Assembly: GCA_020060465.1 (NCBI GenBank)
Contig: JAGVAD010000048.1
Span: forward strand, 1 to 64,000
Origin: Anaerolineales bacterium
GTDB taxonomy: Bacteria; Chloroflexota; Anaerolineae; Anaerolineales; UBA4823
Direction: 5' to 3'
DNA: 64,000 nt
This document shows, one piece after another, positions 7,067 to 25,582 of this stretch. The position numbers were made by a program, and so were the translations under genes. A model generated the notes under the pieces. The model did no database searches. It was given only the letters and a program-made list of their open reading frames with translations, and was not told the DNA's origin. Numbering within the stretch: position 1 is the stretch's first letter; the number at the start of each line of letters is the position of its first letter.

Positions 7067-7118
7067 AACACGCCCTGGCGCCAGAACGCCAACCTCCACT
7101 CTGCGGCGCGTGGCAACT

Positions 7119-7136: not shown

Positions 7137-7220
7137 GGGATATTGGGCATCGTTGCCTCCGGGCGCTCCCACGTTGCACATGAACCTGCCCCCGAACAAA
7201 CGGTAAGTGAAGCACCTTTC

Positions 7221-7252: not shown

Positions 7253-7280
7253 GGCACGTATCAATCGCAAAGGAGGTCCC

Positions 7281-9704
7281 ATGAGATACAACTTCTATCA
7301 AGCCGTCGTCATTGGCGCCGGCACGATGGGCGGGGGGATTGCCGCGCTGCTGGCAAACGCTGGCGTGCCCACCACCCTGCTGGACATCGTCCCCAACAAG
7401 CTGACGCCAGAGGAAGAGAAACAGAGCTTAACTCTGGCCGACCCGCAAGTGCGCAACCGCATTGTGCGGGAGGGGCTGGAGCGGGCGGTCAAGTCGCGTC
7501 CGGCCAGCTTCCTTACCCCCGACCACGCCGCCCTGGTGCGCATCGGCAATCTGGAAGACAACTTCGATGTGGTCGCCCAGGCGGATTGGATCATTGAGGT
7601 AATCGTGGAAAGTCTGCCCATCAAACGTCAATTGATGGAGCGTATTGATGCGGCGCGCAAACCCACTGCCATCGTTAGCACCAACACATCTGGCATTCCG
7701 GTTGCCTCCATCGCCGAGGGACGCTCGGATTCGTTCAGGCAGCATTTCCTGGGGACGCACTTCTTCAACCCACCGCGCTACCTCAAACTGCTGGAGATCA
7801 TTCCCACTGCCGAAACGCTGCCGGAGGTGGTCGAAGCGGTGAGCCGTTTCGGAGAGTTTCGCCTGGGCAAAGGCATTGTGCCTTGCAAAGATACGCCCAA
7901 CTTCATCGCCAACCGGTTGGCTTTTGGCAGCGCCGCCTTCGCTCTGGACTATATCCTGGAAAACGACTACACCGTGGAAGAAGTGGACGCCATCACCGGG
8001 CCGGCCATTGGCAACCCGAAAACCGCCACCTTCCGCCTGATTGACCTGGTGGGCATTGATGTATGGGATCATGTAGGCAAAAATCTGGCGCCAGCTATCC
8101 CGCACGACGCTCATGCTTTGAAATATCTGGGGTCGGAGCGCGTTAACCGGCTGATCTCCACTCTGGTGGGACGCGGATCACTGGGCAACAAAACCAAAGA
8201 GGGATTTTACAAAGAAGTCCGCACCGCAGATGGAGGGAAAGAATTCTGGGCGCTTAATCTGGATACGCTGGAATATGAGCCGCCCAAGAAAGTGCGCTTC
8301 GACTCGATTGGCAAAGTGAAAGACATCGAAAAACTTGGCAACAGGCTAAAAGTCTTGCTGGCTGCCGATGACCGCGCCGGTCAATTGGTGCGCGCCATCA
8401 CCTATCAAAGCCTGGCTTACGCTTCCGAGCGTATCCCCGAAGTGGCTGACACGCCCAAGCCAATTGACGACGCCATGCGCTGGGGCTTCGGACGCGAGGC
8501 GGGACCGTTTGAAACCTGGGACATGCTAGGCGTGGCTGAAACCGCCGAGGCCATGCGTCAGGCAGGCTTCCCGCCGGCGCCCTGGGTGGATGAGATGCTG
8601 GCTTCTGGTTGCCAGACATTCTACGATTACCGCGAAGGCATCAAAGTCGGCGTCTACGAACCGGCGCGCGGCGGTTATACTCCCATCCAGCGCCCCGCCG
8701 GGTTGGTGCTTCTGCCAGAGTTGAAAGCCGCCGGCAAGGTGATCGCCAAAAACATGGGTGCAGACGTGCTCGATCTGGGTGACGGGGTGGCCTGCGTCGA
8801 ATTCCACACCAAGATGAACGCCCTGGACGTGGATATCTTCGAAATGATCCGCCAGGCGCTCGATCTTGTGGAAAAAGACTTTGAAGCGCTGGTGATTGGC
8901 AACGAAGCGGATAACTTCAGCGCCGGGGCAAACCTGTTCCTGGTGGTCATGAACGCTCAAAGCGGCCAATGGGAACAGTTGAACAGCCTGGTGAAAAACA
9001 TGCAGGATATTCTCATGCGCGTGCGCTACTTCCCCAAGCCGGTAGTCATTGCTCCGGCAGGGTTGGCGCTGGGCGGCGGAGCGGAAGTCATCATGAGCGG
9101 CAGCCGTGTAGTTGCAGCTTCTGAACTGTACGCCGGGTTGGTGGAAATCGGCGCCGGTGTAATCCCGGCCGGCAGTGGCACTAAAGAAATGATGCGCCGT
9201 ATTATTAACCCAGCCATGCGCACACAAAATGTCACTGTGCTGCCCTTCTTGCAACGCCTGTTTGAGCAGATTGGCATGGCGAAAGTGGCAACGAGCGCCG
9301 AAGAGGCGCGTCAAATGGGCATTCTGGGACCGGCGGATCGCGTAACGTTGAACCGTGACCTGCTTCTCAGCGAAGCCAAGAAGGAAGCGCTGCACATGGC
9401 GGCTACCGGTTACAAGCCACCCCTGCCGGAAAAGATCTACGCAGCCGGACGCGACGCCCTTGCCGCTCTACAGGTGGCGATCTACATGATGCAGCAAGGT
9501 TGTTATATCACCGAATACGAAGCGGTGATCGCTAACAAACTGGCGAATGTCATCACCGGCGGCGACATCAGCAGCCCGACCTGGGTGGACGAGCAGTATA
9601 TTCTCGACCTGGAGCGGGAGGCTTTCCTCTCCCTCTGCGGCAACGAGAAGACCCAGCAACGTATGTGGAACTTGCTGCAAACGGGCAAGGTATTGAGAAA
9701 CTAA
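7281..9704 (+). CDS. fadN: 3-hydroxyacyl-CoA dehydrogenase / enoyl-CoA hydratase, FadN type
   Basis: 807 residues from the ATG behind AAAGGAGGT; the frame stays open upstream, but that part lacks protein character. The N-terminal Rossmann fold opens with [36 protein letters not shown] carries the catalytic His of hydroxyacyl-CoA dehydrogenases. Two C-terminal HAD domains follow to about residue 450, then a crotonase domain ([14 protein letters not shown] with an active-site Glu; [14 protein letters not shown]). This dehydrogenase-first order matches Bacillus FadN (YusL), not E. coli FadB. It hydrates enoyl-CoA and oxidises 3-hydroxyacyl-CoA with NAD+. Thiolase follows directly, as in fadNAE. 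Confidence 0.93.
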
Positions 9705-9780
9705 ACCATTGCGCTACACGCTGCGCCTGGGTGGTCCCCGCACGGCGACTGGCGCATGTTTCACCAAGGAGGTTAAGCGT

Positions 9781-10980
9781 ATGAACTACTCCGATCCCCA
9801 TCGAGAACCTGTTATTGTGGCAGCCGCGCGCACCGCGGTAGGAAAAGCCAAGCGCGGCAGCCTGGCTACGGTGCGACCTGACGAATTGGCCGCAAACGTG
9901 ATCCGCGATTTGCTGCAACGCGCTCCAGCACTCGACCCGACCGAGGTGGATGACGTCATCCTGGGCTGCGCCTTCCCAGAAGGCGAGCAAGGCATGAACA
10001 TGAGCCGCACGGTGGCGCTGCGCGCTGGCTTGCCTAACTCCGTGCCCGCGGAGACGATCAACCGTTTCTGCTCTTCCGGCTTACAGAGCATCGCCCATGC
10101 TGCCTTTGCCATTATTGCTGGGCAGATGCAGGTCGCCATCGCCGGCGGTGCCGAATCCATGAGCCTGGTGCCGATGACCGGCTTTAAATTCGCGCCCATG
10201 CCCTATCTGGCAGAGAACATGCCGCAAGCCTTCACCAGCATGGGCTTAACTGCTGAAAATGTAGCCGCTAAATATGGCATCAGCCGCGCCGATCAAGATG
10301 AATTTTCTCTGCGCAGTCACATGCGAGCCGCGCAAGCGGTTGAAAGTGGACGATTTGACCCCGAGATCACGCCGGTGGAAGTATGTGTGGTCGAGCCGGA
10401 AGGCAACGGCCATCGTCGTGAAAAGACTTTCATCTTCAAGCGCGATGAAGGTCCTCGCGCCGACACCAGCCTGGAGGCGCTGGCCAAGTTGAAACCGGCC
10501 TTCCGTGAAGGCGGCACAGTGACCGCCGGTAACTCATCGCAAATGTCCGACGGCGCAGCAGCGGTGATCATCATGTCACGCGCCAAAGCCGAGGCGCTGG
10601 GATTAAAGCCGCTGGCGCGCTTCATTTCCTTTGCCGTGGGCGGCGTTCCGCCAGAGATTATGGGGATTGGGCCGGTGGTTGCCATTCCAAAGGCGCTTAA
10701 GCTGGCTGGTTTGTCGCTCAAAGACATCGGCTTGATAGAACTGAACGAAGCCTTTGCAGCGCAAAGCGTGGCAGTGATGCGCGAGTTGGATCTGAACCCA
10801 GAAATTACTAACGTCAATGGCGGCGCGATCGCGCTTGGACACCCCCTGGGTTGCACGGGCGCCAAACTGACCACCCAACTGATCTACGAAATGAAGCGCC
10901 GCGACGTGCAGTTCGGCATGGTGACAATGTGTATTGGCGGCGGCATGGGCGCTGCCGGCATCTTTGAGAACTTAAATTGA
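9781..10980 (+). CDS. fadA: Acetyl-CoA acyltransferase (thiolase)
   Basis: 399 residues from the ATG behind AAGGAGGT, although the frame is open further upstream. Thiolase motifs are complete: the nucleophilic Cys in [14 protein letters not shown] (about residue 94), NEAFAAQ, the His of [15 protein letters not shown], and the second Cys in [13 protein letters not shown] at the end. It cleaves 3-ketoacyl-CoA with CoA to acetyl-CoA and a shortened acyl-CoA. It follows fadN by 76 bases and is followed by an SCP2 gene; the three probably form one beta-oxidation operon. Confidence 0.95.
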
Positions 10981-11000
10981 GCATCATAGGAGGCGCAAAT

Positions 11001-11336
11001 ATGGCAGACATCCCCGTCAAGACCCTGATTTATAATCATGAAAAATTCTTCATCCCTGAAGCAGCAGCAGGCGTTGAGGCGATCATCCAGTATCGGCTGA
11101 CCGGCGAAGAAGGCGGAGACTATATTATTGACATCCACGGCGGCAAATGCAAAGTCAGTGAAGGCGTAGCAGAAGAGCCAGCCGTAATCTTGACAGCGGA
11201 CGGGCGCGATTTCGCCGATGTCTTACTCGGCCGAGCCAATGGGATGCAATACTTCATGCTGGGCAAACTTAAACTGGCCGGCGATCTGAATCTGGCGATG
11301 AAGTTGACCAGCTTCTTCAAAATGACCGGCCAGTAA
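11001..11336 (+). CDS. SCP2 sterol-binding-domain protein
   Basis: 111 residues forming a stand-alone SCP2-like domain (VKTLIYNHEKFFIPEAAAGV, ILTADGRDFADVLLG, GKLKLAGDLNLAMKLTSFF). Such domains hold lipids or acyl-CoA in a hydrophobic tunnel. The chosen ATG has AGGAGG seven bases upstream; a TTG at 10977 overlapping the thiolase stop is less likely. It directly follows thiolase and probably acts as an acyl-CoA or lipid carrier in beta-oxidation (inference). Confidence 0.88.
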   Translation: MADIPVKTLIYNHEKFFIPEAAAGVEAIIQYRLTGEEGGDYIIDIHGGKCKVSEGVAEEPAVILTADGRDFADVLLGRANGMQYFMLGKLKLAGDLNLAMKLTSFFKMTGQ

Positions 11337-11355
11337 TCAAGGCCCTAATAAGATA

Positions 11356-11383
11356 GGTGAAGTCCCCGAAGGGGGACTTCACC
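11356..11383 (+). terminator. Strong stem-loop ending the fadN-fadA-SCP2 operon
   Basis: Perfect 12-bp stem GGTGAAGTCCCC / GGGGACTTCACC with a GAAG loop, 19 bases after the SCP2 stop. It lacks a T-run but sits at the end of a plus-strand operon facing a minus-strand gene. Confidence 0.7.
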
Positions 11384-11490
11384 CCTTCCCGCTTCACTCG
11401 CTGCCGACTGAATATTCCTCTTGAGTTCATAGCATTTCTTGGCGATCCCCGCATAAAGAGACAATAAGCGATCAGATCATCCTCGCCCTC

Positions 11491-11970
11491 TCAATCCGAT
11501 TCAATCGAGCGGATAACCCGTTCGGTATGCGCTTCGTAGTCGGGTAAGGCGCGCTCATAAGCGCTGGTCATCAATGGAGAGGAGATCATAAAGTCTGCGG
11601 AGGCGCGGTTGCAAGCCACGGGGATGTTCCACACCACGGCAATGCGCAATAAGGCTTTGATATCCGGGTCATGCGGCAGCGGCTCCAGCGGATCCCAGAA
11701 AAAGATCAGAAAGTCAATGTTGCCTTCGGCGATTTTGGCGCCAATTTGCTGATCGCCACCCAGGGGGCCGCTTTGCAGTTTGACCACCGGAATATTCAGA
11801 GCCTGTTCTAAAAGGCGACCGGTCGTTCCGGTGGCGTACAACTCGTGCTGACAGAGCAACTCGCGGTTATACTCCACCCACTCCAGCAGATCCTTCTTTT
11901 TATTATCGTGCGCCACCAGGGCGATATGCTTTTTCTGTCCAGAGACAATTGAATCGAGTTCTTCTTCCAT
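11491..11970 (-). CDS. mgsA: Methylglyoxal synthase
   Basis: 159 residues from the ATG at 11970. It converts dihydroxyacetone phosphate to methylglyoxal and phosphate, a bypass that frees phosphate when triose phosphates accumulate. Family motifs are clear: [10 protein letters not shown], the phosphate-binding [21 protein letters not shown], and [20 protein letters not shown] with the catalytic Asp/His region. The ATG is preceded by GGATGA and starts 17 bases after the stop of the CopZ-like gene, so the two are probably cotranscribed. An upstream extension of the frame would overlap that gene and is rejected. Confidence 0.95.
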
Positions 11971-11987
11971 AAGATCATCCGAGTATA

Positions 11988-12494
11988 TCATCCAGCAGTT
12001 GCGTACTGTTTGATCAACCCCCGAACATTGCCCAAACAACAGGAACCCTGTGGGTTGCGCAAATCGCAAGCGCATTGACCCGCCTGAATGCCCGCGTTAA
12101 TATCCTCCAGGATGAAGCGGTGCTCTTCTGGCGAGGCGGCGCGTATCTCGCCCACCGTATGCCGAAAGCAATAACAAACCAATACTTCCTCTGCTTGAGG
12201 TTCTTTTTGATAGACGCGCTCACGCAGTTGATCCGCTGTAAAAGTCTGCTTTCCGTCGGCGGAGAAATACACCACCGGGCAGGTTGGCGTGCGACAAAAC
12301 AGATATTCACCGTCTTCCACCGCCCGCAATGACATTGCTAACATCGCTTTGACCGTCTGGGTTTGCACCGGCTTGCCCTTTTCGCCGCATGAGTCACAAA
12401 AAGCCGCCTGGCGAACGGGTCGCTGCAACGCAGGCGCGGGCAGTTCGCAGGTCTCCGCCCCCGCCAGGGGATTTGAACAACATGCATCAAGCAT
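11988..12494 (-). CDS. CopZ-like iron-sulfur/metal-binding protein
   Basis: 168 residues, rich in Cys. [20 protein letters not shown] and [11 protein letters not shown] form the N-terminal zinc-binding part, and [14 protein letters not shown] plus [17 protein letters not shown] form a BFD-like [2Fe-2S] part, the arrangement known from the N-terminal half of Archaeoglobus CopZ. The C-terminal copper-binding HMA domain of that protein is absent. The ATG at 12494 has AGGAGG nine bases upstream; an ATG at 12512 overlaps that ribosome site. It sits directly ahead of mgsA. Its role as a metallochaperone or redox sensor is inferred from family only. Confidence 0.8.
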
Positions 12495-12575
12495 AGCAAT
12501 ATTCCTCCTCATACGTGAGATGCCCTCACTCTATAGATGAGCATATCACGGCGCGTCTTACATTTCAGATAGATC

Positions 12576-13307
12576 TTAAGGCCGATAATGGTAAGTGTTG
12601 ACCGAAAAACTGGCCGAATAGTAACCGTTGGTCGCCGATCCTACCAGGGCGATGAAATAATGGTAAAACTTGGCGGTTTTCATGTTCATCGGCCCATATA
12701 GCCGACTGGCGCTGCCCGTGGGGGTGAACCACAGTTTCCAGTTGCCAGCCTTACCCTGAAAAGTGATCCCGCTGCCATTTGTCAAACCGGCAAGCTTGAC
12801 AGACGCCGGTCTCTTCTTGAGCTTGGCGTAGGCGTCCACCGTCGGCCCCCAGGCGGCGTTGACAATAGTAAAGCGCGATTTGCCGTTGTCGCTGGTCGAA
12901 TGGGATACATCGAACCAGAACTGGGAGGCGGTCGGCGCGCCGCCGGAATCCAGGTGGGCAATCACCGTGTACACCTTATCGTAGTCTGCGTAGAAAGAAC
13001 GCGTCAGAACCGCCGGATTGCTGCATGGCGTTGCGCTGGCTGGCGAAAAGCTGATGGTGTAGTTGCCTGGTTCCACGCTGAACGGCCCGGCGCTGCGCAT
13101 GAACATGAAGTTGCTCAGCACACAGCCCAGCCCGCTGATAGATACATCCAGAGGATATTGCATGAGCGGCTGACCCATGTCCAGCCCGCTGATGCCATGC
13201 ACCACATAGATCAACGCTGGCGGCAGTGCCTGAGCGGATGCCGGAGCAAAGCTGGCGGCCACCAGGGTGAGAATCAAGACAACAAACAAGATGGTTTTTT
13301 GGGACAT
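12576..13307 (-). CDS. Secreted DUF4397-domain protein
   Basis: About 243 residues. A signal peptide (TILFVVLILTLVAASFAPAS, cleavage near AQA) precedes a DUF4397-type beta domain: IYVVHGISGLDMGQPL, PLDVSISGLGCVLSNFMF, GPFSVEPGNYTISFSPA. DUF4397 proteins are extracellular with unknown function. GGAGGAGGC lies just before two consecutive ATGs; the second (13307) has the better spacing. The gene is divergent from the exopolysaccharide locus. Confidence 0.8.
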   Translation of the reverse strand: MSQKTILFVVLILTLVAASFAPASAQALPPALIYVVHGISGLDMGQPLMQYPLDVSISGLGCVLSNFMFMRSAGPFSVEPGNYTISFSPASATPCSNPAVLTRSFYADYDKVYTVIAHLDSGGAPTASQFWFDVSHSTSDNGKSRFTIVNAAWGPTVDAYAKLKKRPASVKLAGLTNGSGITFQGKAGNWKLWFTPTGSASRLYGPMNMKTAKFYHYFIALVGSATNGYYSASFSVNTYHYRP

Positions 13308-13422
13308 CATGCCTCCTCCACAAGATGGATCTGGCGTCTATTGTAACACCCTATGCCCAACGCGGCGCAGTGTTTATGCTGGCTGGAATGAACCATTTTA
13401 AAAAATTGGGCAAGCAAAATGA

Positions 13423-13431
13423 TGCTATAAT
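13423..13431 (+). promoter_or_regulatory. Extended -10 promoter of the exopolysaccharide locus
   Basis: TGCTATAAT is a consensus extended -10 element (TGnTATAAT); no good -35 is visible, as is common for this class. It would give a 5' leader of about 150 bases before the Wzz-like gene at 13591. The rest of the 283-bp gap (13308-13590) shows no gene. Confidence 0.6.
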
Positions 13432-13590
13432 AGCCATTCGATCCATATGCTTCCTTGAATTTTTAGGAACATGTGGAATTCATTTTGCAAGCGGACGATC
13501 CACCACCGAGGACAATGCGAAACCTCGTCCGATTAGATGCTATTTTACGAATATCTCGCAACGATAAATTTTTCACTATCGGAAGGTTCC

Positions 13591-14877
13591 ATGGATGATG
13601 TAATTGAGATTGATCCCCGAAAGATCATCGAAAACTTGTTGACAAACTGGAAGTGGATTGCCCTGTTGACGTTATTGGTTGGGCTGGCGGCTTTCGCTTT
13701 TTCAATCCTTCAGCCGCGCCGCTATTCGGCAAAAGCCACCATCGCTGTCTCGCGCCCGCGCTATATGCTGAACCTGGACAGCCAGTATCAAACAGTCAAC
13801 AATCCGCCACCCACCAACAAAGCCATCGTCTCGCTGGCTTACGGCGATGAGATCATCGAGATGATCTATCAGCTTTGGGAGAGCCCTAAGAAAGAAACTA
13901 CCTCCTGGCAAGAGTTTCGCGAGAGCTACCTGGAGGCGAAAGCCGATGCCGACCCGTCTATTGCCACCCTGACCGTGCGAGCAGAGACCCCGCAGCAAGC
14001 AGCGCAATTGGTCAACGTCTGGGCGCAGAAAACGGTGCAAAGCGCCAACCGGGTTTTTTCCGGCACCGACGGCTTACAGGTGCAGTTGATTAACGCTCAA
14101 CTGGAGACAGCCCGGCGCAATTTACAGCAAGCGCAGAACGATCTATCCAATTTCGAGAGCCGCAATCAAATTTCGATTTTGAACAACCGCCTGTCTTCAC
14201 TGCTCACTTTGCAAGCCGACTGGCTGCGTAAACAACGCCTGATCGAAGACGCGGCGCGCGACGCCGACGGGCTGGTTGCCCAATTAGACGCTCTGGCGCA
14301 GGATGCGCCGGTGGAAGGCGCGACGCAGATCAATTTCATGGTGCTGCAAATGAAGGTTTACGCTGATGTAAACTCAATTGCCGCCCCCAGCAGCACAACC
14401 AGCCACAACCCCGGAGCGACGGTTCTGAACCTGCCAACGACTCCGCTGCAATTCCAACTGCCCGCCCCCTCCACCCTGCCCTCCCTGGCCAAAGCAGATT
14501 TCGTCAAACAAGTCCGATCCTGGACGGAGGATATGAAATCAAAAGCCGCCCAGATTCAGCAGCAGCTCGACGCCATGGCAGCGGAAGTTTATGATCTGCA
14601 ACAGCAAATTCGCGAGCAAATGAATGAGCAGGAGCGGCTTTTGGCGAATTATCAAAGCATGCAGGAGGTTTACACCACGGTGTTGACCAAGAGCGAAGAA
14701 GCCAAACTCACCTCCGACGACCTGTTCGGCAACGTTCAGATCGGCTCGTTGGCGGGGGAACCGGTGAAACCCGATTCGCGAAACACCATCCGCAACACGG
14801 CTATCGGCCTGATGATGGGTTTCGCACTGGGGGCCGGCTTCATTCTGACGCGCGGCTGGTGGAAAAACGAGCTTTAG
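13591..14877 (+). CDS. Wzz-type polysaccharide chain-length/export protein
   Basis: 428 residues. A TM helix near residues 20-42 (WIALLTLLVGLAAFAFSILQ) is followed by the Wzz domain (PRRYSAKATIAVSRPRY), a long coiled coil (about 165-390, Gln/Glu-rich) and a second TM near the C-terminus (NTAIGLMMGFALGAGFIL). Such proteins set chain length or bridge export of polysaccharides. No Walker-motif tyrosine kinase is fused to it or adjacent. The start ATG lies behind GGAAGG; the frame is open for 54 bases upstream. It opens the exopolysaccharide cluster. Confidence 0.85.
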   Translation: MDDVIEIDPRKIIENLLTNWKWIALLTLLVGLAAFAFSILQPRRYSAKATIAVSRPRYMLNLDSQYQTVNNPPPTNKAIVSLAYGDEIIEMIYQLWESPKKETTSWQEFRESYLEAKADADPSIATLTVRAETPQQAAQLVNVWAQKTVQSANRVFSGTDGLQVQLINAQLETARRNLQQAQNDLSNFESRNQISILNNRLSSLLTLQADWLRKQRLIEDAARDADGLVAQLDALAQDAPVEGATQINFMVLQMKVYADVNSIAAPSSTTSHNPGATVLNLPTTPLQFQLPAPSTLPSLAKADFVKQVRSWTEDMKSKAAQIQQQLDAMAAEVYDLQQQIREQMNEQERLLANYQSMQEVYTTVLTKSEEAKLTSDDLFGNVQIGSLAGEPVKPDSRNTIRNTAIGLMMGFALGAGFILTRGWWKNEL

Positions 14878-14914
14878 GTTGGCCTGCGCTGGTCGCAGAC
14901 ACAAGTTGCATAGG

Positions 14915-16057
14915 ATGAGACGCTATCCTCGCTGGGTCCTATTGGCAATCGGCTTGATCGCCATCGGCGCGTTGAGCGGATGGGGCGCGCCGCGGGCGCG
15001 GCATAGATTACACCTGGCGCGCGGCGGGCAACTGTATCAGTCTGCCTGGCAGGCGATTGACGAGCAGCACGTCCTGGCTTGCGAGCGAGCGCCCGTGACC
15101 GATGAAGACCTGCGCGCGCAACTGAGCGCCGCCCGCCAGGAATTGGAAAAAGGGCTGGCGTATGATCCGCAGGACGCCCACGCTCATCTCTTGATCGGGC
15201 GTATCCAGTGCCTGTTGGGCGAGCCGCAACAGGCGCTGGAGGCGCTGCAATTCTACGTCCAGCAGCGTCCGGAAAATCCGATGGGATACCTGGAGCTGGG
15301 CTTTGCTCGGCTCGCCGCCTGCGCCCAGGAGGCGACTACCGCTGCGCAAGAGACGCGCCTGTGCAGCGATGCCCAGATCATCCAGGAGGCGCAAGCTGAC
15401 TGGCAGGAATTTCACCTACGCAGCAAAGATTTCTTCCCCCAGGCGCGCTACACTTTCGAGAAGAAAGATTATTCCAGCACGTTGATCAATTATCAACGAG
15501 CGTTGATGTTTCGCGCCCCGGGTTTGGGTAAATTCCCGTTCCCGGATATTTACCGCTGGGCAATAGCTGCTGTGTTATCAAGATCCGCCTTTCCGACTTT
15601 TATTTTAGAGACGCTCCCCTCTGTTAAGCTGACCAACAGCAAAACCATCCCTGCGGCGCAATTCCGCTGGCTGCGGACCATCCCTGAGGCGCAGATTGAC
15701 ATCAGCACGCCGGTGGTCAAGAAAAAGATCGGCGATGCAAAGTACGGGATTCTATATCACGGCGGGCGCGTTGGCGTATTCCTCCGGGCGCAGCAAAGCG
15801 GCTGGTACTTGCTCAAATTCAAAGCCCTCAACACCGCCCCGCCGCCGGTGATCGCCCGCGTGGAACTGGATACTCGCCCGGTGATCGAAGCCGAACTCGC
15901 CCGCGGCGACCAAAGCCAGCAGACCTTCACCGGCCGCGCCTATCTCACAGAAGGAATACACCTGCTGAGTGTGAACTACCTGAACGATCAGATGGTCAAC
16001 GGCGTGGATCGGAATCTGTTCTTTCTGTTCGTCCGCCTGGAGCGGGCGGCGGAATGA
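14915..16057 (+). CDS. Membrane-anchored TPR protein with carbohydrate-binding-like C-terminus
   Basis: About 380 residues. An N-terminal membrane anchor (WVLLAIGLIAIGALSGW) is followed by TPR-like helices (about 90-150; LLIGRIQCLLGEPQQALEAL) and a C-terminal beta-sandwich from about residue 270. The last stretch, VNYLNDQMVNGVDRNLFF, resembles the ND...DRNL signature of calcium-dependent xylan-binding modules. Role unknown; it may tie glycan binding to assembly. The start is uncertain: no ribosome site is clear, and a TTG at 14879 is possible. Its last 157 coding bases plus 13 bases downstream recur at 18050-18219. Confidence 0.7.
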   Translation: MRRYPRWVLLAIGLIAIGALSGWGAPRARHRLHLARGGQLYQSAWQAIDEQHVLACERAPVTDEDLRAQLSAARQELEKGLAYDPQDAHAHLLIGRIQCLLGEPQQALEALQFYVQQRPENPMGYLELGFARLAACAQEATTAAQETRLCSDAQIIQEAQADWQEFHLRSKDFFPQARYTFEKKDYSSTLINYQRALMFRAPGLGKFPFPDIYRWAIAAVLSRSAFPTFILETLPSVKLTNSKTIPAAQFRWLRTIPEAQIDISTPVVKKKIGDAKYGILYHGGRVGVFLRAQQSGWYLLKFKALNTAPPPVIARVELDTRPVIEAELARGDQSQQTFTGRAYLTEGIHLLSVNYLNDQMVNGVDRNLFFLFVRLERAAE

Positions 16058-16070
16058 AGCGCGCGCTGGA
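15901..16070 (+). repeat. 170-bp direct repeat, copy 1 (3' end of the TPR gene)
   Basis: Begins at CCGCGGCGACC and runs 13 bases past the stop codon. Copy 2 at 18050-18219 differs at only three positions. Flanking DNA on both sides is unrelated between copies, so the ends are sharp. Confidence 0.95.
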
Positions 16071-16131
16071 ATAAGATGACAGTATAAAATTAAATGGCTC
16101 TCCCGGAATAAATCTTTAGGGAAGATATTTT

Positions 16132-17679
16132 ATGATGTTAAACAAAAAAGCACATATAGCCCTGTTGGGCCTTAGCATCGTTGGTGCAGGTTTGATCTTT
16201 TTCCCCACTCGATCTTTCGGGTTAGGCATCTCCTACGATTCCGTAGAATATATCGCAGTAGCCAATAATATACTCAATGGAATCGGCGCGATCGGTTTTG
16301 GTGGAGCTCACCTTGTCCATCAACCGTTGTTGTATCCCGCCGTTTTATCCGCTTTGAGTTATATCTCAGGAAATGATCCTTCTTTTTCTGCGAACTGGCT
16401 GAACGTGCTTCTGTTCTGCGCTACGATCTACTTTACAGGACTGCTCCTCCTCAGAAACCTGCATTCCCCGCTGCTTGCCTTTATCGCGACGGCTGTTATG
16501 ATAGTTGCCATCCCGCTGCTCAAGGTCTATTTTATGGCCTGGAGCGAACCATTATTTATTACCCTCACAGCGCTTTATTTGCTTCAAGTAGAGACATATC
16601 TTACCAAAAAAGACAGATTCTCGTTAAGCATGTTGGCGTTAGTGGTTGGTCTGGCGGCTCTAACACGCTATATTGGCATCGTCCTGATCCTGACGGGTGT
16701 AATCAGCATACTATTTTTACGCGACGGGGGTTTTAGAGAGAGATTATTTCATGCAGTGCTATTCACTGGATTCGCCAGCTTTCCGATAGGGATAAATCTG
16801 GTTCGCAATTATATTGTATCGTCAACTTTGTTCGGATCGCGGTCTCCATCTATTTTTTCTCTATCCCAAAATTTGTCTTTTACTACGAATTCTTTATTTT
16901 CCTGGTACCTCCCCAATACAATTGCACAACACAGAGCGGCACTGCTGTTATTAGGGATCATGATTGGTTTTCTGAGTGGAATTCGCTTCAAAGAGAACTG
17001 GCTGCAAAACAAAGAAATTTTTACTAGGCTGCGTTCTCCACTTTTATTTGCTACAGCTTATATAGCTTTTCTAATCTACTCCTCCACCACAACAGCTTAT
17101 GATCAAATTGGAGATCGTTTGCTGTCGCCCATGTTCATTCCCATCACCTTATTGATCGTAACGATTGGAGAAGTATGGTTATTGGGAGAGCGCGGAAATT
17201 TCTTAAACGGAAGGCCGAATGTATTGTTGCGGACCCTTGCTGCGTGTATCCTAACCACGCTATTATGGTCGCGCCCAATTCAAGTTACTCCAGGATTAGT
17301 CAAATCTATCTCCACCCAGGGCTGGGGATACCATAGCAAATCCTGGAGAGAAAGCGAAACGATTGGCTATCTGCAGCAAAAATTTTTGCAGGAGTGCGCT
17401 CTTTACACCAACGCGCCGGAGGTGCTTTATTACCTAACAAATTTAAATGCGAAATTTTCACCCCCAAAGAAAAAATACAATTCTCCCGAACAAGTGTCCG
17501 AAATCTCTCACCTCAAAGGCAAATGGCCAGCGGAAGACATCGCTTGTCTGGTTTGGTTTGATAAGACAAGGATTGACCGCAGTTATTTATTTTCGCCAGA
17601 TGACCTTAAGCAGGTTAGCCGGATAAAATTACTTACTCAGACTGGAGATGGCGCTGTTTATGTGGTCAGCAAAAAATGA
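16132..17679 (+). CDS. GT39/ArnT-like polytopic membrane glycosyltransferase
   Basis: 515 residues with about ten or more hydrophobic helices. The first extracytoplasmic loop carries ISYDSVEYIAVANN, with the acidic pair typical of GT-C enzymes that use polyprenyl-phosphate sugars. The C-terminus is a soluble extracytoplasmic domain from about residue 400. Codon use and base composition are clearly more AT-rich than in the preceding genes. It lies between the two copies of the 170-bp repeat, so it belongs to the rearranged segment. Sugar and acceptor are unknown. Confidence 0.7.
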   Translation: MMLNKKAHIALLGLSIVGAGLIFFPTRSFGLGISYDSVEYIAVANNILNGIGAIGFGGAHLVHQPLLYPAVLSALSYISGNDPSFSANWLNVLLFCATIYFTGLLLLRNLHSPLLAFIATAVMIVAIPLLKVYFMAWSEPLFITLTALYLLQVETYLTKKDRFSLSMLALVVGLAALTRYIGIVLILTGVISILFLRDGGFRERLFHAVLFTGFASFPIGINLVRNYIVSSTLFGSRSPSIFSLSQNLSFTTNSLFSWYLPNTIAQHRAALLLLGIMIGFLSGIRFKENWLQNKEIFTRLRSPLLFATAYIAFLIYSSTTTAYDQIGDRLLSPMFIPITLLIVTIGEVWLLGERGNFLNGRPNVLLRTLAACILTTLLWSRPIQVTPGLVKSISTQGWGYHSKSWRESETIGYLQQKFLQECALYTNAPEVLYYLTNLNAKFSPPKKKYNSPEQVSEISHLKGKWPAEDIACLVWFDKTRIDRSYLFSPDDLKQVSRIKLLTQTGDGAVYVVSKK

Positions 17680-17751
17680 CCTTGTTGGTTGGACCAGCTG
17701 ATTAGAGATAAGCGCATCTTTTTCGCTAATCATGAGCAATTGAGGTGAACG

Positions 17752-18117
17752 ATGGTGCTGCAAACTTTACAACAAGTCTGGCAGTGCTTTGCTATGCGCC
17801 AGCCGGCTGAGGCTACCTTTACTCGCAATGTGTTGTGGATGGTGTTTGGCAATGGCTTGCGTACTGGAGTCCAGGTCATCTATTTTTTATTGGTTGCCCG
17901 CACCCTGCAGGCAGCGGAGTATGGTATATTTGCAGGCAGCCAGGCTTTAGTGTTAGTTTTCACCTCGTTCACCAGTTGGGGCAGCGGCAACATTTTGATC
18001 AAGTATGTTTCCCGCAGCAGGGAGCAATTCTCGCTGTATTGGGGCAGCGCCGCGGCGACCAAAGCCAGCAGACCTTCACCGACCGCGCCTATCTCACAGA
18101 AGGAATACACCTGCTGA
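17752..18117 (+). pseudogene. Truncated Wzx-type flippase (5' fragment)
   Basis: The first roughly 100 codons encode the N-terminus of a polysaccharide flippase of the MATE-like superfamily (VLWMVFGNGLRTGVQVIYFL, ARTLQAAEYGIFAGSQALVL), with the usual two helices and the YGIF turn. At 18050 the sequence switches abruptly into the 170-bp repeat, adding about 23 unrelated residues (out of frame relative to the TPR protein) before a stop. An intact flippase has about 12-14 helices, so this product should be non-functional. A complete flippase follows at 19148. The ribosome site AGGTGA is intact. Confidence 0.88.
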
Positions 18118-18219
18118 GTGTGAACTACCTGAACGATCAGATGGTCAACGGCGTGGATCGGAATCTGTTCTTTCTGTCCGTCCGCCTGGAGCGGGCGGCG
18201 GAATGAAGCGCGTGCTGGA
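18050..18219 (+). repeat. 170-bp direct repeat, copy 2 (fused into the flippase fragment)
   Basis: Matches 15901-16070 at 167 of 170 positions. It carries the last codons and stop of the TPR/carbohydrate-binding gene without the rest of that gene, joined directly to the flippase fragment. It marks a recombination junction. Confidence 0.95.
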
Positions 18220-18273
18220 TGAACAAAAATTGGGAGATTGAAAAACGAACTTTCCTACATTAAAGGACAAGAG

Positions 18274-19158
18274 ATGGGCAGACAAAGAGATCATGAGGAG
18301 ATTGTAAATAATGGGACAGGACAATATAAGACGAGGCCTCCAGTCGCCTATTCTGCACATAATTACTGGGAAGAGAGGTTAAGCCAACACTTTGATCTTA
18401 CCGGTGCTGGTTACGCTACTCTGGGTCCTCGTTTCAACGCTACACTTTACAAGGCTCGCCTGGAAGCCCTTGAAAAAGGCTTGGCTTTTATCGGACGAAC
18501 GCTGAAGGGCAGCAGCGTTTTAGAAGCGGGTTGTGGCACCGGCTTCTATACAGGTTATTGTGCACAGCAAGGGGTAAGCTCATACGTTGGTTTAGACATA
18601 ACTTCGATCAGTGTAAGCACATTACAGAAGCGATACCCCAACTTTAGTTTTATACAGTCCGATATTTCGGCAGACAAAATTCCAGATTTGGGGTCAGGAT
18701 TTGACATTGTATTAGCAGCAGATGTGCTCTTTCATATAGTCCAAGATGTTGCGTTTGAAAACGCGTTGCAGAACTTAATTTCCCGCCTCCGACCAGGAGG
18801 CTTGCTGATTATCTCAGATGTGTTTCCTGCAAATTCATATGAATTGGCATACTATATCCGCATTCGATCTCTAAACGACTACAGCCATCTTTTTGAAAAA
18901 TATCAGGCTCGGATATCCCACATAGAACCCATCTTTGCTATCCTTCAACCTCCGCCCCTCATGCCTCATATGAACTGGCTCTGGCAAGGCTATGCCTGGC
19001 TTTGGCGGTATGGATGGAGATTGGCTCGTTGGGATATGATTGATATCTTATTACCACCTGTGCTGGCCCGGTTAGACAAATATCTTTTCCTTCCAAAATG
19101 GGGGAGACACGCCCCAAATAATAAATGGTTGTTTGCAATAAAGGACGATGTGGCGTAA
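18274..19158 (+). CDS. SAM-dependent methyltransferase (class I)
   Basis: 294 residues from the ATG six bases after AAAGGA. SAM-binding motif I is VLEAGCGTGFYTGYCAQQG; the following acidic residue lies in YVGLDITSISV; the post-motif VLAADVLFHI and LRPGGLLIISD are typical of methyltransferase type 11/12. It may methylate a sugar or lipid-linked glycan, given the neighbours. The stop overlaps the start of the intact flippase by 11 bases. Confidence 0.85.
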   Translation: MGRQRDHEEIVNNGTGQYKTRPPVAYSAHNYWEERLSQHFDLTGAGYATLGPRFNATLYKARLEALEKGLAFIGRTLKGSSVLEAGCGTGFYTGYCAQQGVSSYVGLDITSISVSTLQKRYPNFSFIQSDISADKIPDLGSGFDIVLAADVLFHIVQDVAFENALQNLISRLRPGGLLIISDVFPANSYELAYYIRIRSLNDYSHLFEKYQARISHIEPIFAILQPPPLMPHMNWLWQGYAWLWRYGWRLARWDMIDILLPPVLARLDKYLFLPKWGRHAPNNKWLFAIKDDVA

Positions 19159-20566
19159 TTTACTGAAAGCTAATTTGATCTATGCATTTGGCAATGTTGC
19201 GAACAGCGCGGCTTTATTTCTGCTTGTGCCTTACCTGGTCAATGCCTTCCCACCCCAAGAATACGGAGCGTGGTCCATCTTTGAAATAGCGATTCTGTTT
19301 CTCAACATGTTGATTCTGACCGGGTTAGACATTGGCTTGATGCGCGAGTATTGGTTTTTAGATAATGATAATGTACGATCTCAACTGGCTGGCAATGTTC
19401 TACTGGCAATTAGCCTGTGGGGTGGAATTTTGTTCGTCTGCGGAACTGTGTTGTTAACCATTGGCGTAAAATCCTCACTCCCCGGCGCTCCTCTAAATTT
19501 GGTGTTGGTGCTGGCAATCGCGTGGATGGAAGCAGTATTCGCCTTCTTTCAGACCTTGTTTCGTGTTCGAGAACAACCAGCGATCTTCGTTGCCCTTTCA
19601 GTAAGTCGTATGGCTTTGTTCATGGGCATGGCGATTGGCTTAGTTGAGGCTGGGTATGGGTTACCTGGCGCATTAATTGGCCGTTTGGGTGGCACGATTC
19701 TGACATTAGGAGTGGCAATTGGGTTAGGTTATCGTTATATTTCTGCGCGTTTTGACTGGACAGCATTGAAGCGCGTCTTGCGCTACGGTTTGCCCTTACT
19801 GCCAACCAATATAGCTTCATACATTCTTTTTGCCTCTGATCGGTATGTCCTGCAACACTTTTCCACATTGGAAAACGTGGCTATTTATACCTTTGCTTAT
19901 AAGATAGCCACCATGCTGGATATCTTAATTACCCGGCCTTTTGCTGTAGATTGGGCGCCGCGGCGCTTTAAGATAGCCACCTATGACAATGCACACCAAA
20001 AATATGCTCAGGTTCTTCTGTTTTACTTATGGACAGCGATTACCTTTACTTTGTTGGTAATCGCCCTGACACCTACAATTTATATCTGGCTATCTCCTCC
20101 CATATATCGGACTGGAATGAGCGTGGTGCCCGTGATCCTGCTTGCTTATCTCATCTATGGCCTGAGCTATCCTCTCAATGTGGGCATCTTGCTCAAAGAT
20201 CGTACGAAGTATTTACCGATTATTGGTTGGATCGCTGCTGCGGTTTGCCTGGGATTGAATTTCTGGTGGATTCCCAGATATGGGGTCCTGGGGGCGGCTT
20301 GGGCAACGGTTGTGGCTTATAGTTTCTGGACCGCTGGGATAACCTGGGCTTCCATCAAGCTCTACCCAGTGAGATATTCACTTCAACAAGTGGGGTGGAT
20401 ATTAGTAGCTGGTCTGGTTGGCTATATGGGGATTTGGTTCTCCGATAAGATGATACCCCTGAACGATGCAATATTGATGGGTGGCTTGAGGGCTGGTTGG
20501 ACCTTGATAGCAATGGGGGCAACCGGTTTAGTGTTATGGCGCAATAATCAGGTCGTATATCAATGA
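19148..20566 (+). CDS. Polysaccharide flippase (Wzx type)
   Basis: 472 residues with about 12-14 hydrophobic helices of the MATE/MOP superfamily (LIYAFGNVANSAALFLLVPY near the start, FPPQEYGAWSIFEI, ASYILFASDRYVLQHF in the middle). It would flip lipid-linked repeat units to the outer membrane face. It starts inside the methyltransferase gene and its stop overlaps the next ATG (ATGA), so translation is coupled. This is the intact counterpart of the truncated flippase at 17752. Confidence 0.9.
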   Translation: MWRNLLKANLIYAFGNVANSAALFLLVPYLVNAFPPQEYGAWSIFEIAILFLNMLILTGLDIGLMREYWFLDNDNVRSQLAGNVLLAISLWGGILFVCGTVLLTIGVKSSLPGAPLNLVLVLAIAWMEAVFAFFQTLFRVREQPAIFVALSVSRMALFMGMAIGLVEAGYGLPGALIGRLGGTILTLGVAIGLGYRYISARFDWTALKRVLRYGLPLLPTNIASYILFASDRYVLQHFSTLENVAIYTFAYKIATMLDILITRPFAVDWAPRRFKIATYDNAHQKYAQVLLFYLWTAITFTLLVIALTPTIYIWLSPPIYRTGMSVVPVILLAYLIYGLSYPLNVGILLKDRTKYLPIIGWIAAAVCLGLNFWWIPRYGVLGAAWATVVAYSFWTAGITWASIKLYPVRYSLQQVGWILVAGLVGYMGIWFSDKMIPLNDAILMGGLRAGWTLIAMGATGLVLWRNNQVVYQ

Positions 20567-21843
20567 GCAACAAAATTTCTCTGCCAAGCAGTTTCTTCTC
20601 TCTTAACAGTCTGCTCGTTTTTTTGCTTTTCGTTGCTCCCACCATTCAATATCGCGTAGAGTTGGGAAGTTTCAGTTTTGCGCTGATGGAACCGTTGGTA
20701 TTGATCGTTTCTGCAATTCTTCTTTATTATCAAATCTCCAGTAGACGGAAGCTGATTATCCTCAAAGATCCATTGGTGTTCCTCTTTGCCGCGATTACTC
20801 TATGGGCAGCTCTTATCCGCCCCTGGTCTTTAGACCAGCGGCACGGTTTAAGCGATATTCGAGATTGGGTGATTCCACTGTTAGGTTTCATCACACTCAT
20901 CACTACGATCCGACACGGATGGCGTCATTGGATAACAATCTACATAATTTTGGTTTGGCTCAGCGCCCTGATTGGCATTTACCAGCATCTCACAGATAGT
21001 TTTCGACCCTTTATTGGCGAATTAGCCGCCTATAAAACCGGATTCGCAATCTCTCCAGAAGAGGACCGCCTTGTTCGCGCTTCCTTTACCGCTGGTTTTT
21101 TCTCTCATCCAAATGAATTTGCGATGTATCTTTTTACCGGTCTAATGATGGCGATAGGTAAATATTTCAAGCACAAGCAAATGATCTTTCTGGCTGTTTT
21201 CTTGTTGCCTATCGTTCTATCTCTCTATTGGACATTCGCCAAGGCTGGTCTTTTGGTAATGGCAGGAGCAATTCTCTTTATCTGGATAGAACGCCGGGTA
21301 AAGCCTAATTGGACTCTGCTGGTTTCTGCAATATTTGGGATAGTCATTGGCGTTATAATTCTCTGGCAAGTGGCTCTCCGCGTTCCACCTGCCTTGCTGG
21401 TTACTTTTTGGTGGCGAGTTGGCTTATGGCAAACAGCTTTGGAAGTCATTCGCGCTTACCCAACTATCCTAATAATCGGCAACGGAATGGACCTTTTTGC
21501 ATTACAAGCCTACTATAACCAACCCCATAACCTCTACATTTACTTGCTTTTGGATTATGGCTTGATCGGTTTGATCTGGGCGTTTGCATTGGCCTGGCAT
21601 CTCTGGCAACGCGGCATCCATATACGCGCTGCAGGCAGCATGGTAGCCGAACCCCTGTTAGCAGCAATGTGGATCGGATTACTCGGTTATCTTGTTGTCG
21701 GTCTAGTAGAATCTAATCTGATCGGAGTCGAGTTACGGATGATTTTTATGACCGCCACTGCTTGTTGGACAGGTCTTGCGCGTGAGATTAAGGAAAAAAT
21801 TCAGGGTGAAGCAAAGCCAGGGAGAGCGATTTATGTCGGATAA
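20563..21843 (+). CDS. O-antigen ligase/polymerase-like membrane protein
   Basis: 426 residues, about 10-12 helices. FFSHPNEFAMYLFTGLMMAI and QPHNLYIYLLLDYGLIGLIW are characteristic of the WaaL/Wzy O-antigen ligase superfamily, with a large extracytoplasmic loop between them. It would join or polymerise undecaprenyl-linked glycan on the outer face. Sequence alone does not separate ligase from polymerase. It is coupled to the flippase by ATGA and overlaps the next gene by 11 bases. Confidence 0.85.
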   Translation: MSNKISLPSSFFSLNSLLVFLLFVAPTIQYRVELGSFSFALMEPLVLIVSAILLYYQISSRRKLIILKDPLVFLFAAITLWAALIRPWSLDQRHGLSDIRDWVIPLLGFITLITTIRHGWRHWITIYIILVWLSALIGIYQHLTDSFRPFIGELAAYKTGFAISPEEDRLVRASFTAGFFSHPNEFAMYLFTGLMMAIGKYFKHKQMIFLAVFLLPIVLSLYWTFAKAGLLVMAGAILFIWIERRVKPNWTLLVSAIFGIVIGVIILWQVALRVPPALLVTFWWRVGLWQTALEVIRAYPTILIIGNGMDLFALQAYYNQPHNLYIYLLLDYGLIGLIWAFALAWHLWQRGIHIRAAGSMVAEPLLAAMWIGLLGYLVVGLVESNLIGVELRMIFMTATACWTGLAREIKEKIQGEAKPGRAIYVG

Positions 21844-23080
21844 ACGACTGCGCGTTCTGGTGATTTCTGAACTCTTCCCCAACCCCTCCTACCCAGCCTT
21901 TGGCATTTTTATTGAACGCCAGACTCACCATTTACAGATTTACTGTGATAACATTGTCGTAGCCCCGGTGCGGGTTTTCCCGCATTTGAGACTATGGAAG
22001 TATGCATTGAACCCGGGGCGTTTTTTTGCCGAGTGGAAGCGATGGCGTATAGATTTGACGAGCATCCCTCAAAAAAGCGATGTAAACGGCATTTCCGTTT
22101 ATTATCCCCGTTATACCTCACCACCTAAACAAATTTTTCACGGCACGTGGGGCTTCTTTGCCTATTTATTCCTGCGGCGTCAGCTCTTGGCTTTGCACCA
22201 ACAACACAGCTTCGATCTCATTCACGCCCACTATGCCAGCCCTTGCGGCGTGATCGCCTTACTGGCCAAGCGTTGGATGCGCGTTCCGGTCGTCTTAAGC
22301 ATCCACGGCAGTGACCTGCACTATACAGTTAGGCAAAACCGCCTCAGTGCTACAATAATTCGCTGGGTTTTCAATAAGGTAGATACAATTATTGCCAACA
22401 GTACCTGGACAAAGGAGCAAATTGTTCATTACGGCGGAGACCCAGAGAAGGTGCAAATTGTTCGCCTCGGAGGAAATCCACCCGAAGCAATCCCACCAAC
22501 AAACTCACCTATGGCAAAAGATGCCATAATATTGCTTTCGGTAGGATATTTGGAAGTGAGTAAGGGTTATACCTATATGCTACAGGCTGTTAAACGCCTG
22601 CGGGATGAAGGATATGATCTTCGCTATGTGATCGTTGGGGACGGTTCCCAACGTCAATCCCTTCAAGCCATGGTGGAAACATTGGGCATTACTGATATTG
22701 TTTCTTTTGAAGGATATAAGTCACATTCTGAAGTCTGGAACTATTTCGCTGGTTGTGACATTTTTGCGTTGCCGAGCTGGAAGGAGGGATTCGGGGTTGT
22801 GTACATTGAAGCGTTGAGCCAGGGCAAACCTGTAATTGGATGTGAAGGTGCAGGAGGCCCAGAGGATTTAAAAGCCCTTGGGGATTGTATTGAACTGGTG
22901 AAGCCACAAAATGTTGAGAGCCTGGTTATGGCTTTGCGACGGCTGATAGATGATCCGGAGCGCCGCCGACAGATGGGGGAAATTGGGCGCAGAATTGTTG
23001 CTGAACACTTTACCTGGCAACAAAACGCGGCAAATACTTGGGTTATTTATCAACGTGCGTTGAAGGCACATCATGCGTAG
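21833..23080 (+). CDS. Glycosyltransferase family 4
   Basis: 415 residues from the ATG behind AGGGAGA. GT-B fold: N-terminal LRVLVISELFPNPSYPAFGI and VVLSIHGSDLHY, and C-terminal ILLSVGYLEVSKGYTYMLQA, the donor site ALPSWKEGFGVVYIEALSQG with the EX7E pair, and GEIGRRIV. It transfers a sugar from an NDP-sugar to the growing lipid-linked chain in the cytosol. A methyltransferase remnant overlaps its stop. Confidence 0.92.
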   Translation: MSDKRLRVLVISELFPNPSYPAFGIFIERQTHHLQIYCDNIVVAPVRVFPHLRLWKYALNPGRFFAEWKRWRIDLTSIPQKSDVNGISVYYPRYTSPPKQIFHGTWGFFAYLFLRRQLLALHQQHSFDLIHAHYASPCGVIALLAKRWMRVPVVLSIHGSDLHYTVRQNRLSATIIRWVFNKVDTIIANSTWTKEQIVHYGGDPEKVQIVRLGGNPPEAIPPTNSPMAKDAIILLSVGYLEVSKGYTYMLQAVKRLRDEGYDLRYVIVGDGSQRQSLQAMVETLGITDIVSFEGYKSHSEVWNYFAGCDIFALPSWKEGFGVVYIEALSQGKPVIGCEGAGGPEDLKALGDCIELVKPQNVESLVMALRRLIDDPERRRQMGEIGRRIVAEHFTWQQNAANTWVIYQRALKAHHA

Positions 23081-23417
23081 CCAACGAGGCTTTTTATACT
23101 ATGATGCCGGTCGAGATCGTTATGGAATAGATTGGCGAGAGTCTCTTTCTATAATTGTTGGAGAGGCCTTGTTGAAAGAGATATTAGCCTCCCGACGATA
23201 TATGAGGGGTCGCTTACTCGATGTGGGTTGCGGTAAACGTCCCTACGCATTGATTTACGATCCTCTGGTTGCAAGGTGTTCTGCACGCATACTCACGAAA
23301 ACTGGAAAACCAGCTGGGAGATTTTTTGACGTCCGGGTATTTTCTGGTGGCAAGACGTTAATGCTAACAACAGTCGAAAATATTACCTCGTTGCGGTCCC
23401 CCTTCTTAAAATACTGA
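23073..23417 (+). pseudogene. Remnant of a SAM-dependent methyltransferase
   Basis: About 65 codons look like the start of a class I methyltransferase, including motif I (RGRLLDVGCGKRPYALIYDP), but downstream motifs are missing. After about 23280 the sense moves to another frame, where GDFLTSGYFLVARR ends at 23361, resembling a methyltransferase C-terminus. A further fragment reads LLKILRDGGKIIE at about 23402-23440. An internal deletion with frame change is the simplest reading. The start overlaps the GT4 stop by eight bases, so it was once part of the operon. Confidence 0.7.
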
Positions 23418-23544
23418 GAGATGGTGGAAAAATTATCGAGTAAGATGTGCGTATTCTACTTGCAGTAAGGATGAATCGCTCTAGACACTAATGGTTTTTT
23501 AAATATATGCTAACATCTGGAATGCCAAACAATTTGAAAAGCAG

Positions 23545-24414
23545 ATGAAAACAAACGATTGGATCAAGAAGCTATACGAATTTCAGTCTCAGCATGAGGC
23601 TGAATACAAACTTCCTACGGCTTATTGGATGCCAGAGGGGGTTGACGCTTGGCTTCATCGCCGCAAACTTATTCAGGTTTTACCGCTCATCCAAAACTCC
23701 CCTGATTCAAAGTGGCTGACGATCGGGGATGGCCGTTTTGGTTCAGATGCCTATTTTCTCAATAAAATGGGAGTACATGCAGTTGCATCCAGTATCAGTG
23801 ACGCCACATTGAAAGTTGCTCTGGAACGCGGTTATATCCAAGAATATAAAGTTGAAAATGCTGAGAGAATGACAAGCAGCGATGGCGAATTTGATTATGT
23901 GCTTTGCAAAGAGAGTTATCATCACTTTCCCAGACCGCCTTTAGCGTTTTATGAAATGTTAAGAGTAGCATCTAAGGCGGTCATTTTGATCGAACCAATA
24001 GAAGGACCTAACCGCTTGTTGGATTGGCTCAGGAACTCGGTTGTCAAGAAACTTGTTCGAGGCGATCAATCTGCATTATTCGAACCTAGCGGAAATTTTA
24101 TTTATAGGGTTTCGATCCGAGAGATCGAAAAAATGATGAACGCTATTAATGGTTCGATTATTGCAGTCAGATTCTTTAACACATTCTATCATCCAAAACT
24201 CGCGTCTCAAATAAATGGTTTTACTATCGGTTCACTCCTGACTAAACTTGCCATAAGCATTCAAGATCTCCTTTGTCATCTAAGATTGATGAATTATGGG
24301 TTGGCCACAATCATTGCGTTTAAAACCCCAGCGACACCAGAAATTCAGCAAGCATTGAGAGACAGTGGTTATCACTTGATTTATCTTCCTCAAAATCCTT
24401 ATTTATCTGATTGA
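23545..24414 (+). CDS. Class I SAM-dependent methyltransferase-like protein
   Basis: 289 residues. LTIGDGRFGSDAYFLNKMG is a variant motif I, followed by VASSISDATLKVALERG and FDYVLCKESYHHFPRPPLAF, where a methyltransferase type 11 would carry its post-motif. Absence of the usual GxGxG glycine cluster may mean altered or lost SAM binding. A C-terminal helical extension beyond about 200 is unassigned. Strongly AT-rich. The 127-bp gap before it holds only the end of the methyltransferase remnant. Confidence 0.75.
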   Translation: MKTNDWIKKLYEFQSQHEAEYKLPTAYWMPEGVDAWLHRRKLIQVLPLIQNSPDSKWLTIGDGRFGSDAYFLNKMGVHAVASSISDATLKVALERGYIQEYKVENAERMTSSDGEFDYVLCKESYHHFPRPPLAFYEMLRVASKAVILIEPIEGPNRLLDWLRNSVVKKLVRGDQSALFEPSGNFIYRVSIREIEKMMNAINGSIIAVRFFNTFYHPKLASQINGFTIGSLLTKLAISIQDLLCHLRLMNYGLATIIAFKTPATPEIQQALRDSGYHLIYLPQNPYLSD

Positions 24415-24443
24415 TTTCCGATAAGTTTGAAGTTCTAAACGAG

Positions 24444-25580
24444 ATGAATACCAAAGTAGCCATTCTTTATAAATCTATCCCGCAATACCGACGCGATTTT
24501 TTTAACGGATTGCGGGAAACGTTGGCAAAAGAACATGTTGAATTAATTCTACTGTATGGTCAGCCGGGACATCGAGACGCACTTAAAAATGATACGATTG
24601 ATCTTGATTGGGCTCAAAAAGTGCCAAACAAGATCTGGGAAATTGGCCGTTATGAGATTTATTGGCAACCCGTTTTATCATATCTACGAAATGTTGAACT
24701 TGTAATTGTGGAACAAGCAAGCAAGCTACTAATTAATTATGTTCTTCTCTTCCAAAACGCTCTAGGAATCCGTAAATTGGCTTTTTGGGGGCATGGAAAA
24801 AACTTTCAAGAAACATCTGCTAATCCATTTGGCGAATGGATTAAGCGCCGGATTTCCACTCATGTTCACTGGTGGTTTGCTTACAATGAAACAAGCGCTC
24901 GCGTGGTGCGAGAAATGGGTTTCCCTGCCGAGCGTATCACCATTGTCCAAAACGCGGTCAACACACGTTTCTTAACTCAAACATTGCAAAATCTTACTTC
25001 AGAACAGATCGAACAAACTCGTCAACAATTGGGCTTGAAGAGTGAGCATGTTGGCATCTACGCAGGCGGGTTGTATCCTGAAAAACGTTTACCTTTCTTG
25101 CTGGAAGCTTTACAATTCATCCGCCAACGAGTGCCAGATTTTGAAATGATATTCATTGGGAGTGGAATGGACGCGCAATTGATTGAGCAAGCAGCCGCGC
25201 AACACCCCTGGATTCATTTCGTCGGTCCCAAATTTGACGAGGAAAAAGTACCTTACTATGCCCTGTCAAAACTTTTCCTAATGCCTGGACTTATCGGCCT
25301 GGGTATTTTGGATACCTTCGCTCTAGAAACCCCATTAATAACGACAAATGTGCCTATTCATAGCCCTGAAATAGAATATTTACAAAGTGGAATCAATGGC
25401 ATGATGGTAGCCGATTCGACAAATCCTTTGACTTTTGCTAACACCGCTGTTCAACTTCTCGAAAACGAAGATGCACGGCAAATATTAGTCGCAGGTTGTC
25501 GTTCTTCAAGAAATTTATACAACATCGAAAACATGATTGAGCGATTTACGCAAGGTGTTCTACGCGCCTTAGAGGGATAA
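24444..25580 (+). CDS. Glycosyltransferase (GT-B fold, family 4-like)
   Basis: 378 residues from the ATG at 24444; no clear ribosome site, and a TTG at 24411 overlapping the previous stop is possible. VAILYKSIPQYRRDFFNGLR opens the acceptor domain; the donor half shows VGIYAGGLYPEKRLPFLLEA, FIGSGMDAQLIEQAA and FLMPGLIGLGILDTFALETP. The final acidic site differs from the standard EX7E, so family 4 is approximate. Probably adds a sugar in exopolysaccharide repeat assembly. Confidence 0.8.
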   Translation: MNTKVAILYKSIPQYRRDFFNGLRETLAKEHVELILLYGQPGHRDALKNDTIDLDWAQKVPNKIWEIGRYEIYWQPVLSYLRNVELVIVEQASKLLINYVLLFQNALGIRKLAFWGHGKNFQETSANPFGEWIKRRISTHVHWWFAYNETSARVVREMGFPAERITIVQNAVNTRFLTQTLQNLTSEQIEQTRQQLGLKSEHVGIYAGGLYPEKRLPFLLEALQFIRQRVPDFEMIFIGSGMDAQLIEQAAAQHPWIHFVGPKFDEEKVPYYALSKLFLMPGLIGLGILDTFALETPLITTNVPIHSPEIEYLQSGINGMMVADSTNPLTFANTAVQLLENEDARQILVAGCRSSRNLYNIENMIERFTQGVLRALEG

Positions 25581-25582
25581 TA

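Follow-up and report, generated by a model that had tools for sequence, protein, structure and literature searches.

A duplicated gene end suggests the addition of a glycosyltransferase gene to a surface-polysaccharide locus of an Anaerolineales bacterium

The genomic window analysed here, the whole 64,000-nucleotide stretch of an Anaerolineales contig, includes a surface-polysaccharide gene cluster of the Wzz/flippase/Wzy type, in which a 170-bp direct repeat surrounds a complete glycosyltransferase gene and the start of a foreign flippase gene. In the simplest reading, based on comparison with a sister genome, the unique DNA between the repeat copies (16071-18049) would be a pure insertion, through which the locus gained a unit of 2,149 bp and lost nothing. 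This arrangement probably arose by one homologous crossover in the tail of a resident gene and one illegitimate join, with a fragment from a close relative. The event is of a known kind and, unless the assembly is wrong, seems to reflect ordinary recombination with imported DNA. Provided that the junction is real, the locus has been caught gaining a glycosyltransferase without loss, and the mechanism can be read from the scar.

The two repeat copies (15901-16070 and 18050-18219, plus strand, as are all features below unless stated) are spaced by 2149 bp from start to start. They are identical at 167 of 170 positions (98.2%), the differences falling at 15933, 16029 and 16064 in the coordinates of copy 1. 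Self-comparison of the window by BLAST gave an E-value of 1.9e-79 for this pair, and chance is therefore ruled out. Copy 1 comprises the final 157 bp of a TPR-containing protein gene and the following 13 bp. Copy 2 carries the end of that gene only, and leads into the native downstream sequence, which is collinear with the sister genome up to 23081; the left flanks of the two copies are unrelated. The preliminary description of a sharply bounded duplication around a GT39-like gene and a flippase fragment, with only a gene end in its second copy, proved exact, and copy 1 ends a complete TPR gene. Of its interpretation, a rather recent origin with DNA from a close counterpart of this locus is supported by the identity of the copies, and one sharp end does lie within the TPR gene. 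No other dispersed direct repeat of this kind was found among the self-matches of the window, the remaining ones being a tandem-repeat region at 48-50 kb and a single 29-bp match. A 919-aa open reading frame on the minus strand (47502-50261) spans strong internal repeats that recur every 147 bp or so (about 49 aa); repeats are found in the sister genome too.

The genus is represented by the window genome and two others, all three being drafts. One of them, G001, carries the locus on contig C95 (positions 5500-20000, hereafter L006) in the order Wzz, TPR gene, methyltransferase, flippase, ligase-like gene and GT4 glycosyltransferase. From 11.5 to 64 kb the window is largely collinear with this genome at about 72-85% DNA identity (about 80-85% near the locus). 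The resident TPR gene of the window (14915-16057, 380 aa, weak TPR matches in Pfam) has the same ATG start as in G001, with the reading frame open from a TTG at 14879; the two proteins are 81% identical and both genes come after Wzz. The resident methyltransferase gene (18238-19158, Methyltransf_25, 72% amino acid identity to G001) adjoins the TPR gene in G001, and by this comparison would originally have been its neighbour in the window genome as well. It is followed by a full-length, undisrupted resident flippase gene (19148-20566, 472 aa), whose product matches Polysacc_synt over most of the profile and is 83-86% identical to its G001 orthologue.

Two alignments define the empty site. Window positions 13416-16058 align to L006 2463-5109 and positions 18050-23081 to L006 4952-9953, so that the two G001 segments overlap by 158 bases, corresponding to the coding part of the repeat. 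The alignment resumes at copy 2 and remains collinear for 5 kb; no recipient DNA has been lost. Since the TPR, methyltransferase and flippase genes are directly adjacent in G001, the segment 16071-18049, which is missing there, would have been added rather than exchanged. This runs contrary to the earlier suggestion that the event exchanged part of the glycan pathway and took the place of the remainder of a flippase. The completeness of the resident flippase and its similarity to the orthologue show that the truncated one came as a passenger with the incoming DNA and does not mark the loss of a resident gene. Annotations of a broken flippase beside inserted genes can thus denote passenger fragments instead of lost functions.

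The insert encodes a complete PMT_2/GT39-like membrane glycosyltransferase (16132-17679, 515 aa, 44% GC), assigned from a sub-threshold profile match and from its homologues. Its score against PMT_2 (PF13231) is 21.8 bits, under the Pfam gathering score of 26.1, and full-length homologues in the same class share 25-38% identity with it. Within this family, five of eight members match PMT_2 and two of eight match PMT at E<0.01; an acidic D36-S-V-x-Y motif in the first loop is invariant, as is E139. A profile of the family had no match among sequences of solved structures. By analogy with PMT/ArnT enzymes, the likeliest guess is that the protein uses a lipid-carried sugar as donor and transfers it at the outer face of the membrane, and the added gene may alter the glycan.

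The second gene of the insert is the 5' fragment of a foreign flippase gene (17752-18049, 99 codons, roughly the first fifth of such a gene), which covers positions 2-83 of the 274 positions of Polysacc_synt with 50 bits and whose best homologue in the class is at 38%. It is cut by the junction at 18049/18050, where the flippase start meets an internal point of the TPR tail; the illegitimate nature of this join is indicated by the start of the repeat at 18050 and the unrelated left flanks. Beyond it the reading frame continues out of frame into copy 2 for 22 unrelated residues (the nonsense tail ATKASRPSPTAPISQKEYTC) and stops at 18117. The neighbourhoods of the best homologues of the glycosyltransferase do not pair them with the flippase family of the insert.

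The favoured mechanism would start from an incoming fragment with the order TPR tail, PMT-like glycosyltransferase, flippase start. Re-circularisation of this fragment, with the flippase stub joined to the TPR tail, would yield a circle of 2,149 bp, which in the simplest form could integrate by a single crossover over the approximately 170 bp of homology. The product would contain an intact TPR gene, the new glycosyltransferase gene, the flippase stub and the duplicated TPR tail, with the resident genes untouched. As in a Campbell-type single crossover, a direct repeat of the homologous arm surrounds foreign DNA; the circular intermediate, the identity of the donor and the route of uptake are inferred. 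With G001 as the outgroup, copy 2 carries the derived state at repeat position 33, and copy 1 carries it at position 129. This polarity of the two coding differences, a test of two sites, is weakly suggestive of one crossover between positions 33 and 129; mutations after the duplication would account just as well for all three differences. The DNA may have been taken up by transformation: a ComEC-family gene is present in all three members of the genus and DprA in two of them, but DprA was not found in the window genome.

A close parallel is provided by a lacZ conjugation assay in E. coli, in which a PCR designed to reveal duplication was positive for 56 of 60 integrants and 14 sequenced integrants had duplicated 109-950 bp of the homologous arm (PMC3240628). 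These duplications were ascribed to a single crossover of a circular molecule missing part of an arm, the loss being probably due to degradation and re-circularisation (PMC3240628). In both cases one arm is duplicated (170 bp here), foreign DNA lies between the copies and the resident sequence is kept; in contrast to the laboratory plasmid and selection of that assay, the present case concerns a natural polysaccharide locus for which no donor was found. Similarly to Salmonella O-antigen clusters, with their gene remnants and partly duplicated wzy (PMC3715488), the locus has gained genes and retains remnants and partial duplications, but the IS elements and serial deletions involved in Salmonella were not seen at the window locus. 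No direct precedent in Anaerolineae or in O-antigen loci was found in the literature searched.

The main rival of recombination is misassembly, in which co-existing strains with the orders TPR-PMT-flippase and TPR-methyltransferase were joined in one contig at a strain-variable locus. We regard this as unlikely, though it deserves serious weight: the assembly is a draft of 64 contigs and 83% completeness, the repeat differences are at the strain level, and chimeric joins occur at hypervariable loci. Moreover, all genomes of the genus are drafts, and the tail-duplication pattern is absent from the single-contig genomes sampled. On the other hand, misassembly requires that flippase DNA be connected in the assembly with a point inside the TPR tail, a join that a fork between strains would not create by itself, and no leftover contig carries the alternative locus. 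A second complete TPR/flippase locus, the search for which had been proposed in the preliminary description, is not present in the assembly, and neither the repeat nor the insert has another copy of any part there. A nonsense change in a comparable scar of G001, described below, is what a dead remnant, but not the gene of a live strain, should show.

Recombination involving a circle has a further, rather improbable competitor in linear homology-facilitated illegitimate recombination (HFIR) or in exchange between sister chromosomes during transformation, in which one end of the incoming strand pairs at the TPR gene and the other is joined illegitimately on the sister copy, upstream of the end of the TPR gene. 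The same anatomy of one homologous and one illegitimate junction is known for HFIR in S. pneumoniae, A. baylyi and P. stutzeri (PMC3240628), and interchromatid products with partial duplications are documented in pneumococcus (PMC3784515). An HFIR-like event was also proposed for the T6SS effector-immunity arrays of V. cholerae, where, as here, a module is added behind a conserved gene and the old material is shifted downstream (PMC5361080). The ComEC-family genes of the genus fit this explanation as well. However, canonical HFIR couples the insertion to a deletion of recipient DNA of typically similar size (PMC3240628), whereas the recipient here gained a duplication and kept all of its DNA; likewise, effector genes are displaced in the V. 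cholerae arrays (PMC5361080), while in the window the duplication is confined to the 170-bp tail and every resident gene remains. A microhomology of 3-10 bp is a mark of the illegitimate junction in HFIR; for the join at 18050, no donor flippase with which to compare it was found.

Two other explanations are very improbable. A site-specific mobile islet targeting the 3' ends of genes, for which the 170 bp would serve as attL/attR and an integrase would act in trans, would account for a restored gene end with a displaced tail, and for two cases in one genus; yet the insert encodes no integrase or transposase by Pfam profile search, no inverted repeats were found at it, the target sequences of the two cases are unrelated, the repeat lengths differ (170 and 60 bp) and on the right both inserts close with a truncated gene start. 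A larger segment duplicated in tandem, with subsequent deletion and divergence, is equally hard to credit, for although the gene end is present as a direct repeat, the inserted DNA does not belong to the locus and is missing from the sister, and the neighbouring genes have no second copy.

G001 bears the second scar (L006 9878-12519), at the variable point that comes next along this locus. The tail of its GT4 gene (L006 9878-9937) is repeated at 12452-12511, 2,574 bp apart, with 58 of 60 bases identical. The repeats enclose a complete gene for a 782-aa membrane protein and a truncated gene start of 42 codons (MTDPRNFYKQLW...), after which come the 60 bp from the GT4 tail. Both scars thus have the order gene X, a complete gene, the start of another gene, and the tail of X; in both, the left repeat edge lies inside the gene and the right edge at the gene end, where the flanks of two relatives would naturally diverge. 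In the downstream GT4-tail copy a conserved tryptophan codon is changed from TGG to TAG. Both differences in this remnant tail are derived with the window orthologue as reference, and the nonsense change points to a genuine remnant in decay. Pfam gave no match for the 782-aa protein, its role as a glycosyltransferase being a guess, and the truncated gene start matched only itself among the relatives. The repeat of 60 bp is short for RecA.

The G001 scar arose independently of that in the window and suggests that the same route was used more than once in this lineage. We speculate, with considerable doubt, that the genus repeatedly gains glycosyltransferase genes as small fragment circles added behind conserved gene ends, each leaving a tail duplication; if true, this would be a cassette-like diversification without an integrase, a transposon or the loss of resident genes. 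After the GT4 gene, 23082-27093 of the window corresponds to a different 5.7 kb in G001, the only other large difference thereabouts. This part of the window is a variable cassette of methyltransferases, GT4 and hexapeptide transferase genes, unrelated to its G001 counterpart and flanked by the conserved GT4 and WecG genes. A 114-aa open reading frame beside the GT4 end (23073-23417), which has the methyltransferase-like motif LLDVGCGKRPYA but matches nothing in Pfam, resembles the remnant of a gene.

No donor or second copy was found in the own genome and 61 relatives at the DNA and protein levels, or in 396 genomes of the class; DNA-pattern and protein scans of genome and viral contigs likewise yielded no donor. 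An uninterrupted TPR-PMT-flippase order was not found in any genome searched. We also surveyed about 1.93 Mb from seven genomes, a non-random sample taken largely around PMT_2 genes, for direct repeats of at least 35-40 bp with 88% identity and a spacing of 0.3-9 kb. Two gene-tail duplications and no more emerged from this sample, those of the window and G001, both in the polysaccharide locus; the G001 case came to light because the homologous locus was inspected, and no probability is attached to the coincidence. Direct repeats in four other loci (L093, L118, L129 and L170) were rejected as gene-tail duplications, being short; those inspected in L093, L129 and L170 are intergenic or hairpin-like. 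Locus L129 of genome G047 (1486-3550) contains a family of hairpin-like repeats of about 45 bp, ACACTGGGATG...CATCCCAGTGTTTTT, in four copies about 500-800 bp apart, which are probably terminators.
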